NCBI GenBank assembly: GCA_029268515.1
Contig: JAQWNP010000010.1
Coordinates: forward strand, 62,001-126,000
Source: Phycisphaerales bacterium
GTDB taxonomy: Bacteria > Planctomycetota > Phycisphaerae > Phycisphaerales > SM1A02
Length of the DNA: 64,000 nucleotides
Reading direction: 5' to 3'
Shown: positions 54,815 to 64,000 of the stretch, in pieces
Layout: each line of letters begins with the position of its first letter
Numbering within the stretch: position 1 is the stretch's first letter
Made by a program: the position numbers and the translations under genes
The notes under the pieces: generated by a model
Told to the model about the DNA's origin: nothing
Databases searched by the model: none
What the model saw: only the letters and a program-made list of their open reading frames with translations

Positions 54815-54912
54815 CTGCCATAGGCAGTCGCAACGGGTGTGCCTGGCAATAGAGGCCTCAAAAACGGTTTTATTGATGATTGCTCTGCCACTCATGCAGG
54901 GCCTATGGCAGG
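54815..54912. repeat. 11 bp inverted repeat in the divergent Hsp20/ABC promoter region
   Basis: CTGCCATAGGC (54815-54825) recurs as its exact reverse complement GCCTATGGCAG (54902-54912), 76 bp apart. Both lie between the divergent Hsp20 copy 2 and the ABC permease gene. A pair of binding sites for one regulator would look like this. Confidence 0.4.
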
Positions 54913-55143
54913 GGTGGTGTCAAATTGGCTGTCGACGGGCCTCTGGTGGCGGGGAGGCTCTATAAGCTCACGCTGAGTGCCCTGTATGGGACGAATAATG
55001 AGGGTTGCTCAAGGTCGGTGGATGGATCGCCGACATACCATTCAGTTGGGCAGAAGTGGCCTTCAGCTCATTTTGAGCCCGATTTATGGTTCATGAGGGA
55101 TCTAAAGGAGGACATCCCAGAGGGATGTGAACATGGAATAGGT

Positions 55144-56007
55144 ATGAGACAGCATTCTCAGGGCGAAGATGCGAGCCCAGCCATACCACTGCAAGAAATA
55201 GTGATCAAGCCCCAGAAAGGCTGGATCGGTATCAACTGGGGTGAGATGTTTCGGCAGCATGAGCTGCTTTTTTTCCTGGTAGGAAGAGATATCAAAGTTC
55301 GGTACAAGCAGACCATTTTTGGTGTGCTTTGGGCTGTCATCCAGCCACTCCTGACAATGTTGATCTTCACGGTCATCTTTAACAAGGTCGCTGGAATCAA
55401 TTCAGATAGTGAGATTCCTTATCCGGTTTTCGTCTACGCAGGCTTGTTGCCGTGGCAATTTTTTAGTGCTGCTCTTACTTCAGGTTCGACAAGTTTGATT
55501 GGCCAGCAGAATCTACTGACAAAAGTCTATCTTCCACGTATGTTTCTGCCTGCGGCATCACTTGGTAGTGCCTTTGTCGATTTCTGTATCGCATTCATTA
55601 TTCTTATAATTCTGATGCTCATATATGACGTGCATCCAAGTTGGTCTACTTTTGCTATTCCACTTTTGGTTCTACTGGTAATTTTGACATCTCTCGGTAT
55701 CACACTGATATTCTCAGCTTTATGTGTTAGTTACCGTGATGTGCGTTACGTTGTGCCATTTGCCGTCCAGATTCTTATGTATCTCAGTCCAGTGATTTAT
55801 CCAGTCAGTATTGTTCCTAAGCAGTATCAGTGGATTCTGGCATTGAATCCTATGACAGGTATCATTGATGGATTCAGGAGTAGTCTTCTGGGGGCACCCT
55901 GGAATTTTATGGCCATAGGTGTTTCGACTCTTATCGCGATTTTGCTCTTGTTATTTGGATTGTTCTTCTTCCGGCGAACAGAAAGACGATTCGCAGACAT
56001 TGCTTGA
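55144..56007 (+). CDS. ABC-2 type polysaccharide export permease (Wzm-like)
   Basis: The 287-residue product has six membrane helices and the family signature at the N-terminus (HELLFFLVGRDIKVRYKQTIFGVLWAVIQPLLTMLIFTVIF), then FVYAGLLPWQFFSAAL, VYLPRMFLPAAS and LSPVIYPVSIVPKQYQWILALNPMTGIIDGFR. It exports polysaccharide or lipid-linked glycans with the ATPase encoded next. Start choice is uncertain: ATG at 55144 or at 55093. A strong AAAGGAGG at 55104-55111 is followed by two tiny frames (ATG TGA and ATG GAA TAG) before 55144, an odd arrangement. Confidence 0.87.
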   Translation: MRQHSQGEDASPAIPLQEIVIKPQKGWIGINWGEMFRQHELLFFLVGRDIKVRYKQTIFGVLWAVIQPLLTMLIFTVIFNKVAGINSDSEIPYPVFVYAGLLPWQFFSAALTSGSTSLIGQQNLLTKVYLPRMFLPAASLGSAFVDFCIAFIILIILMLIYDVHPSWSTFAIPLLVLLVILTSLGITLIFSALCVSYRDVRYVVPFAVQILMYLSPVIYPVSIVPKQYQWILALNPMTGIIDGFRSSLLGAPWNFMAIGVSTLIAILLLLFGLFFFRRTERRFADIA

Positions 56008-56037
56008 TTCCTGCCGCAAGGACTTGGTTGCCAGAAA

Positions 56038-57291
56038 ATGAACAATCAGATCATCAACGTTGAAAACCTCGGCAAGATGTACCGTATTGGCGGTGAATCT
56101 GGACACCCTAGGCAGTTTCGAGAACTCATCGTCGGCATGCTGAGCGCACCTTTGCGTCGTTTACGCCGACTCAGTGAGCATGGTGGCGACCAGAGAGAGT
56201 TCTGGGCGCTTCGGAACGTGAGTTTTAAGGTCAATCAGGGCGAAGTCGTGGGCGTTGTTGGTAGCAATGGTGCTGGCAAATCCACGCTCTTAAAACTGCT
56301 CAGTCGTATCACCATGCCAACAGAAGGCGAGATTACTTATCGGGGCCGTGTTGCTTCTCTACTCGAGGTGGGCACGGGATTTCATCCTGAGCTTACGGGG
56401 CGAGAAAATATTTTCCTAAACGGCTCAATTCTTGGAATGCGCCGCGCAGAGATCAAAGATAGATTTGATGAGATTGTTAGTTTTTCAGGTGTTGAGCAAT
56501 TTCTAGATACACCTGTGAAACGCTACTCATCAGGAATGTATGTGAGGTTAGCTTTCTCAGTCGCTGCCCATCTGGAGCCGGAAATTCTACTTATTGATGA
56601 GGTGCTCGCGGTTGGCGACATTGCTTTTCAGCAGCGTTGTTTGAAAAAGATGAACCAAGTATCAACAGAGGATGGGCGTACAGTCTTTTTTGTTAGTCAT
56701 AATCTTGCAGCAGTTAAACAATTGTGTAGCCGCGCGATCCTACTAGAGGGTGGGAAGGTGACAATGGATGGCTCTACGCAGGATGTACTGAAAAAGTACC
56801 TGACAAGCTTAGCGGAGGGCTCCAACTCCGCATTCACCGATAATCCTAATCGTTCTGGTGCAGGTGATATTCGACTTGTTGGCGGGCGGTTACTGAATAG
56901 TGATGGAGAATCAAAGAGTCAGTTCTTAGGTGGCGATAAATTGACTATTGAATGCGATTTTCAAAATGATAATCTGCATGGTGATATGCATGTCAGTATG
57001 GAGATTTCTGACCAAACTGGTGGTGTTATCACTGAAGTATCGACGGTCTACACAGGTACGCCACTTATCAATCTAAGCAAGTCAGGCTCATTTCGTTGCA
57101 TAATAGCCAAGCTTCCATTGGTTCCAGGTCAATATAGAGTCGCTATTAATGTCTGGGGTAATCAGAGGTGTCAGGACCTGGTGCCTAATGCATTCCTCTT
57201 TGATGTCATTGGTTCTCATTTTTATTCATCTTCTCGCTCACCAGATGCGGGTGTTTGCATGGTAGATCATGAGTGGATTGCGTCTAAATAA
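56038..57291 (+). CDS. ABC transporter ATP-binding protein with Wzt-type C-terminal domain
   Basis: The 417-residue product has the nucleotide-binding domain at 1-260: Walker A GSNGAGKST, signature YSSGMYVRLAFSVA, Walker B ILLIDEVLAVGD and H-loop FFVSHN. A beta-sandwich Wzt-like domain follows at about 270-415 (GDIRLVGGRLLNSDGES, GDKLTIECDF, GQYRVAINVWGN). In Wzt proteins the C-terminal domain recognises the modified end of the exported glycan. It follows the permease by 30 bp and ends before a strong terminator. No glycosyltransferase genes lie next to it. Confidence 0.9.
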   Translation: MNNQIINVENLGKMYRIGGESGHPRQFRELIVGMLSAPLRRLRRLSEHGGDQREFWALRNVSFKVNQGEVVGVVGSNGAGKSTLLKLLSRITMPTEGEITYRGRVASLLEVGTGFHPELTGRENIFLNGSILGMRRAEIKDRFDEIVSFSGVEQFLDTPVKRYSSGMYVRLAFSVAAHLEPEILLIDEVLAVGDIAFQQRCLKKMNQVSTEDGRTVFFVSHNLAAVKQLCSRAILLEGGKVTMDGSTQDVLKKYLTSLAEGSNSAFTDNPNRSGAGDIRLVGGRLLNSDGESKSQFLGGDKLTIECDFQNDNLHGDMHVSMEISDQTGGVITEVSTVYTGTPLINLSKSGSFRCIIAKLPLVPGQYRVAINVWGNQRCQDLVPNAFLFDVIGSHFYSSSRSPDAGVCMVDHEWIASK

Positions 57292-57560: not shown

Positions 57561-58055
57561 TCAAGCAACCTCTACCGTAACGTTCTTGCGGCTGAACGTT
57601 TTAAGTTTTGGTAGATGTATTGTCATGATGCCTTGGCTTGTATGAGCTTCGATTTGTTCAATCTCAATTTCCCCGCCAAGCCTAATTCGGCGACAGAATT
57701 CACCATCTTCAAACTCCTGTACTCGTGATTTCATTCCCGCGACTTTGCTTGCTGAAGAATGTTTGATTTGTCCGTGTACATGGAGCGTGTCGCCTTCGAC
57801 AGTCACTTGAATGTCTTCGTCGTGAGCACCAGCAACGTCTACGAGGACGATAAAGGATGTTGCTTCTTCAAAAACATCGACTGGTGTGGCTAAGTTTATG
57901 TGCCGCTTCTGATGACGAGGATGTAGTGAGTCGGAGAGCTTATGGCAAGCATCCTTGATAACTGCAAATGTTCCATGTCGCGTGCTTTTGTGCTCGCCGC
58001 TATTGTTTTGGACGCCCTTGCATAATTCACTTTGTTTTCGCATTTCAGTAGTCAT
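57561..58055 (-). CDS. Small heat shock protein (Hsp20), copy 3
   Basis: The 164-residue product starts at the ATG at 58055 with AAGGAGG upstream. The alpha-crystallin domain runs from about 56 (TPVDVFEEATSFIVLVDVAGAHDEDIQVTVEGDTLHVHG) and ends in HTSQGIMTIHLPK. The frame is open upstream to 58124, overlapping copy 4, but the later start has the better ribosome-binding site. It lies 49 bp downstream of copy 4 and is probably in the same transcript. Confidence 0.87.
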   Translation of the reverse strand: MTTEMRKQSELCKGVQNNSGEHKSTRHGTFAVIKDACHKLSDSLHPRHQKRHINLATPVDVFEEATSFIVLVDVAGAHDEDIQVTVEGDTLHVHGQIKHSSASKVAGMKSRVQEFEDGEFCRRIRLGGEIEIEQIEAHTSQGIMTIHLPKLKTFSRKNVTVEVA

Positions 58056-58104
58056 GGCGCACCTCCTTAGGCAATTTGTAGATGGTGTGCTCTTTTGTAT
58101 TTGT

Positions 58105-58572
58105 TTAGTTAGAGCAGACTTCAATCATGTTGGAACGAGCGTTCATTTTTGGAAGCGTAATATCTAATCGCCCATTGCTCATTCGAGCAGTAACACGTTT
58201 TCGGCTGATGCAATCAGGGATTAGGATGGCACGTTCAAATGAGATATTTGCTCGTGTGTATTTTGGAGTACGAGTTTCTTCTGTATTGTCACAAGTGATC
58301 TCAATATCTAGGTTTCCTGTGATAATCAGTTCACTTTGGGTCACTTCTACACTGAGGTTTGGGTTGGCGGTGTTAGGTAGAAGAGCTTCTACATAGTAGT
58401 TTTGGGCGTCCTCGGAAACTTCAAGCACTGGAGGAGCAGCGAGTTCGCTTAGGCACCTGTCGTCTGAGGTAACGACCCGATAGCCTGGAGCCATTGCTTT
58501 GATCATTTCATCAAGATTGTGTTGGATGGTTCGGCAGCAGTTTGTTTGTTCTGTAGTCATTGTGTTTTTCAT
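58105..58572 (-). CDS. Small heat shock protein (Hsp20), copy 4
   Basis: The 155-residue product has an alpha-crystallin domain from about 48 (PPVLEVSEDAQNYYVEALLPNTANPNLSVEVTQSELIITG), the FERAILIPDCI segment and ends with ARMSNGRLDITLPK, the conserved GxLxxxLPK-type motif. AAGGA precedes the ATG. It is the first gene of the copy 4-copy 3 pair. Confidence 0.87.
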   Translation of the reverse strand: MKNTMTTEQTNCCRTIQHNLDEMIKAMAPGYRVVTSDDRCLSELAAPPVLEVSEDAQNYYVEALLPNTANPNLSVEVTQSELIITGNLDIEITCDNTEETRTPKYTRANISFERAILIPDCISRKRVTARMSNGRLDITLPKMNARSNMIEVCSN

Positions 58573-58873: not shown

Positions 58874-61843
58874 TTAGGGCTCGGTTGTGGCGGTCGGGAT
58901 TTGCCCGAGATCGCTCAGGATGGCATCCATGCTGATTGCTCCATTGATGCTCTCAAGCTGATTGGATGGGTCATCTGGATCGAAAGCACGGACTGACATG
59001 ACACCAATGACTTCACCGGCTTGATTCACCATTGGGCCACCACTATTGCCGGGATACACAGTGGCATTGCATTGGATCAAACGCCCAAATGGTCCATGGG
59101 TGTCATGGATGGCACTGATGTTTCCACTGGTCACATTGAGCACCCGATGGTGCCTGGACATTTCGGAAGATGGGGCAGTGGAATCTGTCAGATCTACAGC
59201 TGCAGCCCAATACCCAGCGGCGGATGGGAATCCATACACGAATATTGGCTCACCAGGATTAACTTGGGTTGAGGTAGATAGTGGTTCGATGCCATCAAGT
59301 CCAACATCTAGAATTGCATAGTCAAGATCTTCGCTGATATGGGTGACTGTAGCTTGGGCGCTGATTCCACCGTCAAACAGGACGTCGTAGCGATAGTCGG
59401 TTGATCCATCGTTCGTGACCACGTGGCGGCTGGTGATCATTTGGCCGTTATCAAGAACCATAAACGCTGTGCCGAGACTCAAAATATCATCGGTGGCAAT
59501 AACTGACGGTGAATCTGCAGGGCGTACGACGACCATCCCAACTGCATTTTGCATACGGCCATAATCCGGGACCGCCAGAAAATTAGACTGTGGCGTTGCA
59601 AAATCCGGAATTGTTGTGTTGTTGTTATTGACAATAAGTCCGTTTGAAGAATCTGCTTCTCGGATGGAAAAGACAAGCCTGCCGGGAGCCGCCGCCAGAA
59701 CATTGATCTCATCGCCGGTTTCATTTTCTAGTGCACGGAGGATGGCATCTCTGACAGTCGCAAGGCTTCCAGTACAAGAGAGTGTAAGTTCTAAGCGATC
59801 TCCAGCATCAAAGGTATCTTCTCGAAAAACCTGAACAGAATCAGGTTCTACGCCTGGGCATAATGCAATTGCTTGTGTCAGTGCTTGAGCAGCTCCAGCG
59901 ATGGACTGACCCAAAATTTGCACTCGCAAATAGTCTCCATCTGGAATCTGGTCAACTAAGAGGGTGAGTAGTTCCCGGTCTGAACTGACGACAATAGTGG
60001 GCTGATCTGTAAAACGGCTCACGGCAGCGAGCATCTTATCTCGGACTTGGATCAGATCTGATTCGTACGCAAGCTCAATAACCAAGACTGGTTGGCCCTC
60101 AGTCATACGCTCTTCGAGCATCCGCACAGACGCTGGTTGCACGCCTTGGATATGTGTGACATCGTCACGCAAAGTCCCAAGTGGTTTTGAGCCAAGAGGG
60201 CCTTGCAGAAGCACAACTAATCTTTCTAAAGCAGGCGCAGAGCTGATGCCCAGTACCATTCCTTCGGGGTTGACGGAGTAAACCACAATTGGTTCATTTG
60301 TTTCGTCCTGTACAAGTTGATTGATCGATTCGCGCAGATCAATTAACGTGCCAAAATATTGAAAGGTGATCGTGCGAGATGGAGGCATTCCGCTCGTTAC
60401 GACTTCGTCTGTGAGTTTTACAGAAGCCTTCTCGATGCCATTCAGTTGGCTAATCTTATTGACAAGTCTAGCCAGCCCCCCCTCTGCCAAGGCGCCATGA
60501 ATTGTTAGAGAAAAAGGCTCGAGTAGTGGTGCTTTCAAAAACCGAACATGTAACCGACTGTTCGTTGCTGATATCACAGTGACGCTGTCTTCAGTCAGTC
60601 GATTAAGAATCTCAACAATTTCATTCCTTAGTGTTAAAAGACTTCCACGGAATACAAAATTCATGATGTACTGAGACTGATCTTGATTTTGAGACTCTTG
60701 GGCGAGGTCAATTGAGTTGGCATCGGTTCCGGAAATCTGTCTCAATTGGTCTTTTAAATCTTGTAGTTGTTCAACGCTGAGTGATCCATCAATAACGAGT
60801 TCTATAGGTTCTGGTGATGAAGGAGGCTTGAGCGTAAGTTCAAGCCGACCATTGTGGGCAGCTCGAATCTCGGATGTCCCAAAGCCTAGTATGGCAAGTT
60901 GTGCATCAAGATCTTGATGAAGTTGTGTGACATCACCGGTGAAATCAAAGGCCATAGACACCTTCGATACATCTTCGCTGATCGGAGTGACACCTAAATT
61001 AATTGAGTGAGGCGCGACGCCAGGCACTTGGCTCAGTGCATCGCGTAGTTTTGCTGGTTGAACTTGATTTGAAGGGAGTTCTAGAACTAAACGACAGCCA
61101 CGACCACTATTCGTATCAATCGCAGAGAAGTCTCGCATGATGCGATGAGCCAGTGCATTGGCATGCACGGTTGTCCAGGGAGCATTCCTTGAATTTGCAC
61201 GTACTTCCCAAGCGTGTGAGCCGATGACGCGATTTCGTAAAAGATCGACCATGGTATAAGTTGCTTGAACAGGCGCGCCACGTCTTTGTGGTGTATCAAG
61301 CAAGCGAATCAAGACGACAATCTCTGCCTCTTCAGCAACCCCAATCGCTTTGGCAGCGATGATGGGGCTATCGAGTGGCAGCGATTCCAGTACTTTGAGT
61401 TCAGAGCGATCTTGCGGTGAAATAGAAATCAATGTTGACTGGCCGTGTTCACGAAAACGACCCCACCACGCTGTCCACTGGGCTTGATCAACTCTGACTT
61501 CGCCAGGCAAAATGGGTGGTGTACCGTGTAGCGTGTACATGGCTGGACCAGTTGGAATCAAATCAACGTGGCCTTGGCTTAAGAGACTTCCTTTCAGGCG
61601 GCTATCAAGATCTGCTGCTTGATCAAGTCTGTATTGATTGACCTGTGCGTCACCTGGAGGGCCAGCGACAATTGTCTGAATAAGGAATCGTGGGTGTCCC
61701 ATTGCTCGGTAAGCCGCGACAAAGGTTTCATCCTTTTCATTGATGTTGGGATCCAAGAGGGGGGGTTCTGGAAGTCGCTGCCCGAGGGCTGATCCTGCCA
61801 CTAAGAGTAAGCAGCAACTCGCCAAAATATTTTGCACATACAT
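58874..61843 (-). CDS. LpoB/CsgG-like region, five tandem modules and trypsin-like protease
   Basis: The 989-residue product has a signal peptide (LASCCLLLVAGSALGQ). Residues 25-255 resemble LpoB/CsgG-type proteins (LDSRLKGSLLSQGHVDLI; AEIVVLIRLLDT then TYTMVDLLRNRVIGSHAWEVR). About 260-745 holds five modules of about 95 residues. Each has a beta strand, a helix with LRDALSQVPGV or a variant, VxPxSVxL, a strand ending F/YxGxLxxLRDxI, and a closing strand (GRLELTLK). Residues 770-989 are an S1-type protease with triad H807 (SRHVV), D841 (DLDYAIL) and S934 (PGNSGGP). It probably acts in the periplasm. It is the last gene of the operon with the YcfL-like and COG3014-like genes. Confidence 0.8.
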   Translation of the reverse strand: MYVQNILASCCLLLVAGSALGQRLPEPPLLDPNINEKDETFVAAYRAMGHPRFLIQTIVAGPPGDAQVNQYRLDQAADLDSRLKGSLLSQGHVDLIPTGPAMYTLHGTPPILPGEVRVDQAQWTAWWGRFREHGQSTLISISPQDRSELKVLESLPLDSPIIAAKAIGVAEEAEIVVLIRLLDTPQRRGAPVQATYTMVDLLRNRVIGSHAWEVRANSRNAPWTTVHANALAHRIMRDFSAIDTNSGRGCRLVLELPSNQVQPAKLRDALSQVPGVAPHSINLGVTPISEDVSKVSMAFDFTGDVTQLHQDLDAQLAILGFGTSEIRAAHNGRLELTLKPPSSPEPIELVIDGSLSVEQLQDLKDQLRQISGTDANSIDLAQESQNQDQSQYIMNFVFRGSLLTLRNEIVEILNRLTEDSVTVISATNSRLHVRFLKAPLLEPFSLTIHGALAEGGLARLVNKISQLNGIEKASVKLTDEVVTSGMPPSRTITFQYFGTLIDLRESINQLVQDETNEPIVVYSVNPEGMVLGISSAPALERLVVLLQGPLGSKPLGTLRDDVTHIQGVQPASVRMLEERMTEGQPVLVIELAYESDLIQVRDKMLAAVSRFTDQPTIVVSSDRELLTLLVDQIPDGDYLRVQILGQSIAGAAQALTQAIALCPGVEPDSVQVFREDTFDAGDRLELTLSCTGSLATVRDAILRALENETGDEINVLAAAPGRLVFSIREADSSNGLIVNNNNTTIPDFATPQSNFLAVPDYGRMQNAVGMVVVRPADSPSVIATDDILSLGTAFMVLDNGQMITSRHVVTNDGSTDYRYDVLFDGGISAQATVTHISEDLDYAILDVGLDGIEPLSTSTQVNPGEPIFVYGFPSAAGYWAAAVDLTDSTAPSSEMSRHHRVLNVTSGNISAIHDTHGPFGRLIQCNATVYPGNSGGPMVNQAGEVIGVMSVRAFDPDDPSNQLESINGAISMDAILSDLGQIPTATTEP

Positions 61844-61879
61844 AATTGGGCTCCCTCTTAATGCTCGCGCTGATCGTCG

Positions 61880-62299
61880 CTATCTCGCAGGTCGGACTTC
61901 AAGACTCCAATCCTTGGCATCATTTCCGAGCGAAGTGCCTTCCATGAACATTCGCGTCAGTGCGGGTAGCTCCATGTACCTCCAGTCCCTATTGGGATTC
62001 AGTATCCGTCCTGCCGAATCAAAGAATAAAAAACGATACTGAACACTTAAATCACCTTGGTCTACCAGTACACGTATTGGCACAGCAACGGTCATCGGTG
62101 GACCTTCATCAATGTTTGCTGGGCCAAAGCCAACAAAGTCATCAAGTTTCTCTGCAACAGTGATCTGTGGGTAGTTTCGTGCAGGGAATGGATCAGTTTG
62201 TCCCGCCGGTGGGGGCATTGGTGTTGGTTGGCATCCAACAAGGCAAGCCGCTGCAATCAGTAAGAGGTACCCGGTCTGTCTTAGAGTCTTAGGGTTCAT
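61880..62299 (-). CDS. YcfL-like (DUF1425) lipoprotein
   Basis: The 139-residue product has a lipoprotein signal (TGYLLLIAAACLVGC, lipobox LVGC). The C-terminal part VQYRFLFFDSAGRILNPNRDWRYMELPAL...AKDWSLEVRPAR matches the pattern of the YcfL/DUF1425 family. In Gammaproteobacteria ycfL neighbours lpoB, the activator of penicillin-binding protein 1B. Here it sits between a COG3014-like gene and a gene with an LpoB-like region, a similar grouping. It precedes the protease gene by 36 bp. Confidence 0.78.
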   Translation of the reverse strand: MNPKTLRQTGYLLLIAAACLVGCQPTPMPPPAGQTDPFPARNYPQITVAEKLDDFVGFGPANIDEGPPMTVAVPIRVLVDQGDLSVQYRFLFFDSAGRILNPNRDWRYMELPALTRMFMEGTSLGNDAKDWSLEVRPAR

Positions 62300-62361
62300 A
62301 TTTGATTTGCCTTCCTCTGAGATAATGAGCGGGTGTCATTGCGCACCTACCCAAAGACTGT

Positions 62362-64000
62362 TTAGCCAGTCTTTTCTTCTTGGTTAGACGCCTCACGGGC
62401 GTCTTCTTTGCGGATTTGTTTGCGAAGTTCTCGCACTATTTCACTTTTGGCCTGATAAGGGGGATGCTCTTGGGCAAATATCCGAGAATAAGCAGCGGAA
62501 CTCATCTCTGGTGGCACCAGAGAGCGGCCTCCTTCAAGGATATGGCGTTGGTACTCAATACCACCGCCCGCTTGCTGGAACTGAATGCGCTCCGACGTAT
62601 CGAGGGCAATGCCTTCAGCGCGATAAAGCTCTTCTAGATCACCAAGCGTTAGATCAGTCAGATTGCCTGCAGCTTGGTACTCCATTAAGACCTCATTGGT
62701 CGGGCGACGAACATCCTTGCCGCCCAGGATAAAGGGAAGATCGCTGCCAGTGATTGGATCACTATATGTATCGTTCGTATAGATGAGTTGATCAGCAGTC
62801 GCCCATTCGGGTGCGACATTCTGAGAATTGAGTCGCACATAGTGCATCGTGGCGCGTTCATGTGGTGCAGGGGGGTTGATACCAAAAAGATGAAGTTTAG
62901 AGCCAGATTGCCCCGCGACTTTGAGTGATACCAACGTATCAGGATGGGTGATTTTAATTGGTGCTAAATATACGCGTTGTGGCATGATCTCACAATATCT
63001 TGTGTCAGCATGAGCTCCAGCCTTACTGACCGCGCCGGCGAGTAACAAACCGAGTCCAACATACTTTGAAGTGTCATCATCCTGAGCAAGTAGGACGCCG
63101 CCGGCAACCATCATGCCTGTGCCAACCACAGACTTCGCCACCCGAACATCTTCGAGGTTGTTCCACATATGATCTGCCGACATCTCATCTAGATTGCAGA
63201 CAATTGGATAGTTTGAGTTTACGTCATCAAACTTAACTTGTAGTGGTGCCTTGTAGCCAAATTTATTCCAGGGCCTGAAGCTCGCAATTGCGTTGTCTGG
63301 TCCAGAGGCTACTTTCTGAGGGCCGAGGCCATAGTCAACAACAAGTAGTGTGTTCCATTGATCTGATTCCAATTTGCTGACCAGTTTTTTGAGTTTGGGT
63401 TTGATCTTGAGCGCTTGGCGGAATTGATCACGCGCTTCATCTTTGCGGCCGAGAACCCAGCTCGCCGCACCACTGAGCAGGTGTCCATAGACAAAGTTTG
63501 TTTTTGCTACCACGTAACCACTGTCGAGGTAGTCCTTTCCTCGGCTCCGGCCACGGCGATTTGACTCGACAGCAATATCCTCGCCACTCTTGCGGCCGCC
63601 ATACTCACTTTGACCAAAATCCTTCAACATGAATAGTGATTGATTTGCCGCAGCTCTTGTATTGTCCCACTCGCCCTTTTGACCTTTTTGTACGGCTACG
63701 TAGGCATAGCTCATGGCTTGTTCAAATGGCTCACCCTTCCAGAATTTGAGGTCTTCGTTGAGGACAACAGAGCTAATGGTTTTATCTCTATTGATACCTT
63801 GTGTTCGCAGAATTTCATAGACCTCATTCGCAGTGTCTTCAGAGTCTTCACCTTTTCCGTCAGCGAGATCAATCATGACCTCACGCATGCGAGTTAGCAT
63901 GTAATTTCGATCGTCTTTTTTGTCTCGACTCTTTCCATACTCTGCATCAATAGCCTCTCGGGCATCAGAATAATTGCCAGCCTTGACACTGCTCATGAGT
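62362..64000 (-). CDS. COG3014-like protein, N-terminus beyond the window
   Basis: The frame is open through the window edge. The visible 545 residues begin inside TPR-like helices (VKAGNYSDAREAIDAEYGK), so a signal peptide probably lies outside. Segments fit the uncharacterised COG3014 family: AMSYAYVAVQKGQKGEWDNTRAAANQSL, LSGAASWVLGRKDEARDQFRQAL, VDYGLGPQKVA, and a glycine-rich hydrophobic stretch (VVGTGMMVAGGVLLA...LGLLLAGAVSKAG). COG3014 genes are often found beside lpoB and ycfL homologues. It is upstream of the YcfL-like gene by 62 bp and appears to lead the operon. Confidence 0.75.
   Translation of the reverse strand, partial: LMSSVKAGNYSDAREAIDAEYGKSRDKKDDRNYMLTRMREVMIDLADGKGEDSEDTANEVYEILRTQGINRDKTISSVVLNEDLKFWKGEPFEQAMSYAYVAVQKGQKGEWDNTRAAANQSLFMLKDFGQSEYGGRKSGEDIAVESNRRGRSRGKDYLDSGYVVAKTNFVYGHLLSGAASWVLGRKDEARDQFRQALKIKPKLKKLVSKLESDQWNTLLVVDYGLGPQKVASGPDNAIASFRPWNKFGYKAPLQVKFDDVNSNYPIVCNLDEMSADHMWNNLEDVRVAKSVVGTGMMVAGGVLLAQDDDTSKYVGLGLLLAGAVSKAGAHADTRYCEIMPQRVYLAPIKITHPDTLVSLKVAGQSGSKLHLFGINPPAPHERATMHYVRLNSQNVAPEWATADQLIYTNDTYSDPITGSDLPFILGGKDVRRPTNEVLMEYQAAGNLTDLTLGDLEELYRAEGIALDTSERIQFQQAGGGIEYQRHILEGGRSLVPPEMSSAAYSRIFAQEHPPYQAKSEIVRELRKQIRKEDAREASNQEEKTG

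Follow-up and report, generated by a model that had tools for sequence, protein, structure and literature searches.

The accepted role of LpoB is the activation of the penicillin-binding protein (PBP) PBP1B, and in a 2010 study it acts via the UB2H domain of that enzyme, with LpoB and UB2H strongly conserved in enterobacteria only (PMC3060616). In E. coli its gene lies in a hinT-ycfL-lpoB neighbourhood, and LpoB-family and YcfL-family genes are likewise found together at the locus described here, which lies at the edge of a 64,000-nucleotide stretch of DNA (the window; positions 62,001 to 126,000 of contig JAQWNP010000010.1, assembly GCA_029268515.1) from a bacterium of the order Phycisphaerales. 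In contrast to E. coli, this locus has two LpoB-like genes, a COG3014-like gene that lies between these and the ycfL-like gene, and behind them a gene for a 989-residue protein that we call X, a name that we also apply to its homologues at related loci; no PBP1B was found in the genome. X itself resembles two further groups of described proteins. The HtrA/DegP-type S1C proteases share with it a Trypsin_2 domain and a His-Asp-Ser triad, as well as export, which for X was judged by eye. The middle domain of FlgT, PelC, GNA1162, CsgG and the N-terminal domain of TolB resemble in fold a modest-confidence model of its N-terminal domain (N-domain). However, X differs from the proteases in carrying the catalytic domain behind a predicted CsgG/LpoB-type fold and five modules, and from the second group in having no Pfam match at the cut-off and a different gene context. 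We propose, with a probability of roughly 0.45, that the row encodes an outer-membrane lipoprotein complex that is independent of class A PBPs, and that in one genus the soluble subunit X became a tethered protease. No description of this fusion was found in the literature searched, a search whose coverage left most subscription papers outside.

The five-gene row and its conservation

The row reads LpoB-like 1, LpoB-like 2, COG3014-like, YcfL-like and X, with all genes on the minus strand. Both LpoB-like genes lie beyond the window edge and encode proteins of 216 residues (L001:7752-8402, window-equivalent 64752-65402) and 190 residues (L001:7161-7733, window-equivalent 64161-64733). The COG3014-like gene, at 62362..64000, is truncated at the window end; the assembly has it whole, with 589 residues and a start 131 bases past that end. 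It is followed by the YcfL-like gene (139 residues, 61880..62299) and the X gene (58874..61843). Gaps of 18, 29, 62 and 36 bases separate the five genes. Downstream, the next gene is 301 bases away, and on the upstream side a divergent gene is found at a distance of 203 bases. The shared strand, the short gaps and the wider flanking distances suggest that the five genes form one operon.

A sequence-only reading of the window had proposed that the usual activator is replaced or extended by X. We reject a replacement because two LpoB-like genes stand directly upstream in the same row. The 190-residue protein matches PF13036 (LpoB) at 22.5 bits against a cut-off of 22.3, and the 216-residue protein, which has no PF13036 match itself, joins its family by iterated profiles. 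This family comprises 62 proteins from the fetched loci. Of the 28 members that were aligned, 26 match PF13036 at E <= 1 (best 3e-9), and the family profile aligns with E. coli LpoB in hhalign (probability 91, E 1e-6). Judged by these profile matches, the row contains two members of the usual activator family. Plain BLASTP gave no match between the upstream LpoB-like proteins and E. coli LpoB, and among PDB sequences the profile matched an unrelated chain (E 0.17) better than any LpoB chain (E 0.2-0.5). The earlier naming of a YcfL-like gene is borne out by a match to DUF1425 (PF07233, E 1.6e-7, 31.6 bits against a cut-off of 28.3) and by BLASTP against E. coli YcfL (E 3e-5, as a single comparison). 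Its neighbour, the 589-residue protein, is provisionally labelled COG3014-like. The best Pfam match of this protein is a weak, sub-threshold TPR, matches among NCBIfam families are weak (best MamA, E 0.0013, in 2 of 15 members), and its profile has no significant match in PDB sequences and none in plasmid records.

Four of the five products are predicted lipoproteins. Cys32 is invariant in the LpoB-like alignment and Cys37 in the COG3014-like alignment of 15 members, which is consistent with lipoproteins. A lipobox-like pattern is present in 47 of 62 LpoB-like, 36 of 49 COG3014-like and 29 of 33 YcfL-like proteins and in 2 of 12 X proteins, with the COG3014-like protein and the X of the present genome both among those that lack it. 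X looks soluble and periplasmic by comparison.

A survey of gene order in related genomes revealed that the arrangement is not unique to this genome. Of 63 genomes with a COG3014-like gene, 55 loci (own included) were read and 8 were not fetched. An LpoB-like gene lies within 4 kilobases on the same strand in 52 of the 55 loci, two such genes in 51, YcfL in 50, both LpoB and YcfL in 47, and X in 12. The profiles for these counts were built from the same 55 loci, the seed sequences for X were chosen by eye, and some of the misses fall at contig ends. Across the phylum the COG3014-like profile matches 50 of 294 genomes, 42 of them outside the class and mostly with shorter frames. Eight loci read from these 42 genomes have an LpoB-like neighbour in seven cases and a YcfL-like neighbour in three, which suggests that the gene set is older than this class. 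Variants of the arrangement were also observed. For example, in one family (f5; loci L077, L079, L082, L083, L084 and L093) a second LpoB-like gene follows the COG3014-like gene, in most cases after YcfL, instead of standing ahead of it. Additionally, at locus L095 (genome G103) the COG3014-like gene lies inside an open frame of 1475 residues whose first match crossed one TGA, a possible frameshift, fusion or assembly error.

Class A penicillin-binding proteins

The sequence-only reading had tied the locus to PBP1B, and this link did not hold when the genome was searched. PF00912 (Transgly), the family of class A PBPs, has no match in the present genome in a search whose control matched 10 of 14 genomes, with a missed gene possible at the 99.49% completeness of the assembly (contamination 4.18%). 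The genome does encode two class B PBPs, both with PBP_dimer domains. A UB2H-bearing PBP was considered and rejected, the sole UB2H match over the cut-off being Mfd, in which the residues concerned match UvrB_inter better (67.1 versus 23.7 bits); a second UB2H match, at E 0.59, is under the cut-off.

The same picture is obtained from relatives, where we took the COG3014-like and PF00912 searches as covering the same 201 genomes. PF00912 is present in 15 of these 201, and it has no match in 59 of the 63 genomes with a COG3014-like gene, own included. Three of the 63 are weak matches (E 3e-4, 5e-5 and 6e-4), without which 56 of 60 lack PF00912. There is no association between the COG3014-like gene and class A PBPs, which co-occur in 4 of 63 genomes as against 11 of 138 genomes without the gene (Fisher p 0.78). 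UB2H at E <= 0.001 was seen in none of the four class A PBPs scanned from the 15 PF00912 genomes, two of these proteins coming from genomes with a COG3014-like gene. An earlier source likewise describes class A PBPs as lacking in part of the PVC (Planctomycetes, Verrucomicrobia, Chlamydiae) group and names a Planctomyces sp. (PMC8406291). PBP1B is an unlikely target of the operon, because the search for class A PBPs gave none in the present genome nor in those 59 of 63 genomes, and for the same reason the operon is probably not the LpoB-PBP1B pathway of E. coli.

Architecture and distribution of X

Translation of the X open reading frame reveals a putative Sec signal peptide (residues 1-21, 61781..61843), assigned by eye and with no lipobox cysteine at the presumed cleavage site, that is followed by the N-domain, five modules, a linker and a trypsin domain. 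The N-domain (residues 22-251, 61091..61780) was assigned by AlphaFold2 (AF2) modelling followed by Foldseek and VIA-align structure comparison. Foldseek returned FlgT (7.8e-5), an LPHT ring, a CinA-type protein, XCC0632 (DUF330), PelBC, GNA1162 and LpoB (9.4e-4). The LpoB match (4q6z_A, E 9.4e-4, probability 0.99) has template modelling (TM) scores of 0.19/0.39 to a model with a predicted local distance difference test (pLDDT) value of 62.7. VIA-align placed XCC0632 at the top (Z 10.6), then the FlgT, PelC and TolB N-domains (8.9) and CsgG (7.8); LpoB and GNA1162 are not among its best 50 rows, which excludes neither. Most of these Z values are near those reachable by unrelated models, and we therefore claim for the N-domain, with modest confidence, resemblance to the CsgG/LpoB/FlgT/TolB-N fold superfamily and to no single family. 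The earlier description of a CsgG/LpoB-like N-terminal part is supported at that level and with the same modest confidence, prediction and fold search having found a fold not unlike LpoB/CsgG. The label is weaker at the level of sequence, where neither LpoB nor CsgG is matched by the N-domain in Pfam. CsgG (PF03783) has no match in X and none in the genome, in a search whose control matched 4 of 14 genomes, and the X profile has no significant match among PDB sequences.

The repeat modules noted from the sequence were confirmed as five homologous units when profiles of them were searched against each other. They have 96-98 residues each and span residues 252-737, as module 1 (252-348, 60800..61090), module 2 (349-445, 60509..60799), module 3 (446-543, 60215..60508), module 4 (544-640, 59924..60214) and module 5 (641-737, 59633..59923). 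A profile of the other four, drawn from both species of the genus in which the fusion occurs, recovers each fifth module (E 7e-11 to 7e-21). All 10 module pairs of the present X exceed the shuffle mean (z 2.2 to 16.4, 300 shuffles), with the scores of pairs 1-3 and 1-5 not above the best of the 300 shuffles. An AF2 model of module 4 (19 sequences, first residue read as M) reached a pLDDT of 89.7 with elements in the order beta-alpha-beta-beta-alpha-beta-beta, from which we label the predicted module ferredoxin-like. A fold search with it gave no Foldseek match at E <= 0.001 and VIA Z values up to 6.7 to a common alpha-beta arrangement, so that no family can be named or excluded.

The predicted Trypsin_2 domain (residues 791-948, 59000..59473; Pfam E 5.4e-23) contains the complete trypsin-like triad that had been noted from the sequence, with His807 in RHVVT (codon 59423..59425), Asp841 in LDYAI (59321..59323) and Ser934 in GNSGG (59042..59044). 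These residues align with the triad of HTRA1 and are identical in the second species of the genus. HtrA proteases are the best solved relatives of the domain and also the nearest to it among NCBIfam families, where the best HtrA equivalog score is 57.4 bits against a cut-off of 470. A Pfam scan of X gave no PDZ match, and the protein ends 41 residues past the trypsin domain. Comparison of the two species gave ratios of nonsynonymous to synonymous differences (pN/pS) of 0.20 for the N-domain, 0.21 for the protease, 0.23-0.36 for the modules and 0.52 for the linker. Each domain of X is under purifying selection, as judged from its low pN/pS.

X as such is more widespread than its protease. Among 397 genomes of the class, 56 have a match to a profile of the N-domain and first module, which in some is partial or weak, and YcfL lies within 1.5 kilobases of X in 27 of the 30 loci that were read from these 56 genomes (7 of the 30 repeat earlier loci). 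Like the X of the present genome, these proteins have the N-domain, mostly one module after it and mostly a position beside YcfL, and they often have a further half, within open frames of about 330-840 residues. For example, in family f9 the frames span 333-474 residues, with an N-domain and module match in 12 of 18 loci read, and other complete frames of the own order span 576-833 residues. The further half is likely a second copy of the N-domain in some X proteins, because the N-domain profile matches it again (best E 1.4e-9, in G077, and otherwise weakly); in one protein it matches FlgO below the cut-off (E 0.02). In contrast, X of the own genus is without this further half and has five modules and the protease. 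The homologue in the second species is 70% identical and lies in the same gene order. The protease was seen in these two species alone among 35 X-bearing genomes examined; it was seen in none of the other 33, where in G185 and G350 the frame of X is cut off by the end of the available DNA and may continue into one. Of 400 genomes of the order, the same 2 carry the complete array of five modules, and four others give short weak matches. In a whole-protein search of 121 genomes, full-length matches came from the two species only and the others covered the protease part, among the matches listed. A scan of named genomes found three relatives of the protease part only, with near records possibly missing. 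Since the fusion is seen in only two species of one genus, the earlier suggestion of a proteolytic module in planctomycetes was too wide, and we regard the architecture as an apparently genus-specific variant of a conserved operon.

Genes of the HSP20 type (small heat-shock proteins) are located on both sides of the operon and on the same strand (57561-58124, 58105-58572 and L001:10131-10574). Two of these are confirmed by Pfam and the three are grouped as one family; the HSP20 label was not seen among the genes listed for other loci. A gene for 228 residues beside the outer HSP20 gene (L001:10631-11317) may be another. Further away, two plus-strand genes at 54880-57291 resemble, by eye, the permease and ATPase of a Wzm/Wzt-like ABC exporter for polysaccharides.

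A proposed envelope complex and its alternatives

The proposal of a lipoprotein complex with a tethered protease starts from what the DNA itself holds, namely gene content and order, domain anatomy, conservation, an intact triad, lipoprotein cysteines and a genome in which no class A PBP was found. According to this proposal, the five genes would encode a complex on the periplasmic side of the outer membrane, and in other genomes X would serve as a subunit or adaptor of the lipoprotein complex. The N-domain of X would dock on this complex and the five modules would provide a spacer and a binding arm, such that N-domain and modules together would keep the protease close to the outer membrane and the peptidoglycan. 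There it may cleave or clear envelope proteins, perhaps including the partner lipoproteins, so that proteolysis would have a fixed place in the envelope. From the sequence we infer the shared transcript, the formation of a complex, the docking of X, the activity of the protease and its substrates, and each step past an exported protease encoded with envelope lipoproteins is to be read as conditional. In a broader form, which we put forward tentatively, the LpoB-YcfL-COG3014 set would be an envelope system without class A PBPs for which activation of PBP1B was a later enterobacterial use, and in one genus the soluble subunit would have turned into a tethered protease, armed with modules, for processing the complex or its targets.

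Several observations weigh against this proposal. X is not found in 43 of the 55 COG3014-like loci and is therefore no obligate neighbour of the other genes. A promoter scan gave no support for a transcript start of the five-gene row, and the promoter and terminator scans together returned fewer sites than in shuffles. The AF2 model of residues 22-349 of X, built from 12 sequences, has the modest pLDDT given above, every one of its seven Foldseek matches at E <= 0.001 has a low TM-score, and the unrelated CinA-type structure 5kvk matches it at a similar level (E 4.2e-4, Z 8.2). At the sequence level X has no PF13036 match, its profile aligns with E. coli LpoB at E 0.22 and probability 0.3 in hhalign, and the N-domain profile aligns marginally with that of the LpoB-like family (probability 35, E 4e-4). 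Finally, the substrates of the protease could be secreted proteins unrelated to the complex.

A different role in the cell wall is unlikely. The operon could regulate peptidoglycan synthesis via the class B PBP/SEDS enzymes and not PBP1B, with the protease-fused X trimming or removing a synthase regulator. The LpoB family members of the operon fit such a role, and the two class B PBPs of the genome mean that wall-synthesis enzymes are available for regulation. However, the action of LpoB that is known from the 2010 study is via UB2H of PBP1B (PMC3060616), which was not found here, and the COG3014-like gene is without association to class A PBPs (4/63 versus 11/138, p 0.78). We give rather little credence to a role in assembling a ring or export apparatus in the outer membrane, comparable to those of CsgG, PelC and FlgT, in which X would be a ring subunit and the protease would mature an exported product. 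CsgG forms a ring or pore, and the fold matches of the N-domain include the ring and pore formers FlgT, PelC and CsgG, where the ring state of the PelC dodecamer and of the LPHT ring is taken from the titles of the structure entries. Nevertheless, TolB and other proteins that form no ring have this fold too, the operon proteins matched no curli, Pel or flagellar family, and PF03783 is absent from the genome. Equally little credence goes to the view that the genus has in X a common HtrA-like protease for quality control, secreted or periplasmic, that was fused to an operon gene by chance and whose N-domain and modules only bind substrate. The nearness of its protease domain to HtrA in NCBIfam and among solved structures speaks for this view, as do the HSP20 genes on both sides of the operon; against it stand the lack of a PDZ match, an N-domain as constrained as the protease (pN/pS 0.20 versus 0.21) and an X gene that stays behind YcfL in both species. 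That a protease replaces or extends an LpoB-like activator of PBP1B is very improbable, since the presence of LpoB 4q6z among the N-domain fold matches (Foldseek E 9.4e-4) and a YcfL neighbourhood as in E. coli are set against LpoB-family genes in the operon itself, an X profile that does not match E. coli LpoB, and no PF00912 or PBP-borne UB2H found in a 99.5% complete assembly.

More generally, operons with genes of the LpoB family, a family that has been understood through activation of PBP1B, are conserved in bacteria in which class A PBPs were mostly not found. The function of the LpoB-YcfL-COG3014 set without PBP1B thereby becomes testable, and the protease fusion provides a handle on it, as the substrates of this protease should name the targets of the system.

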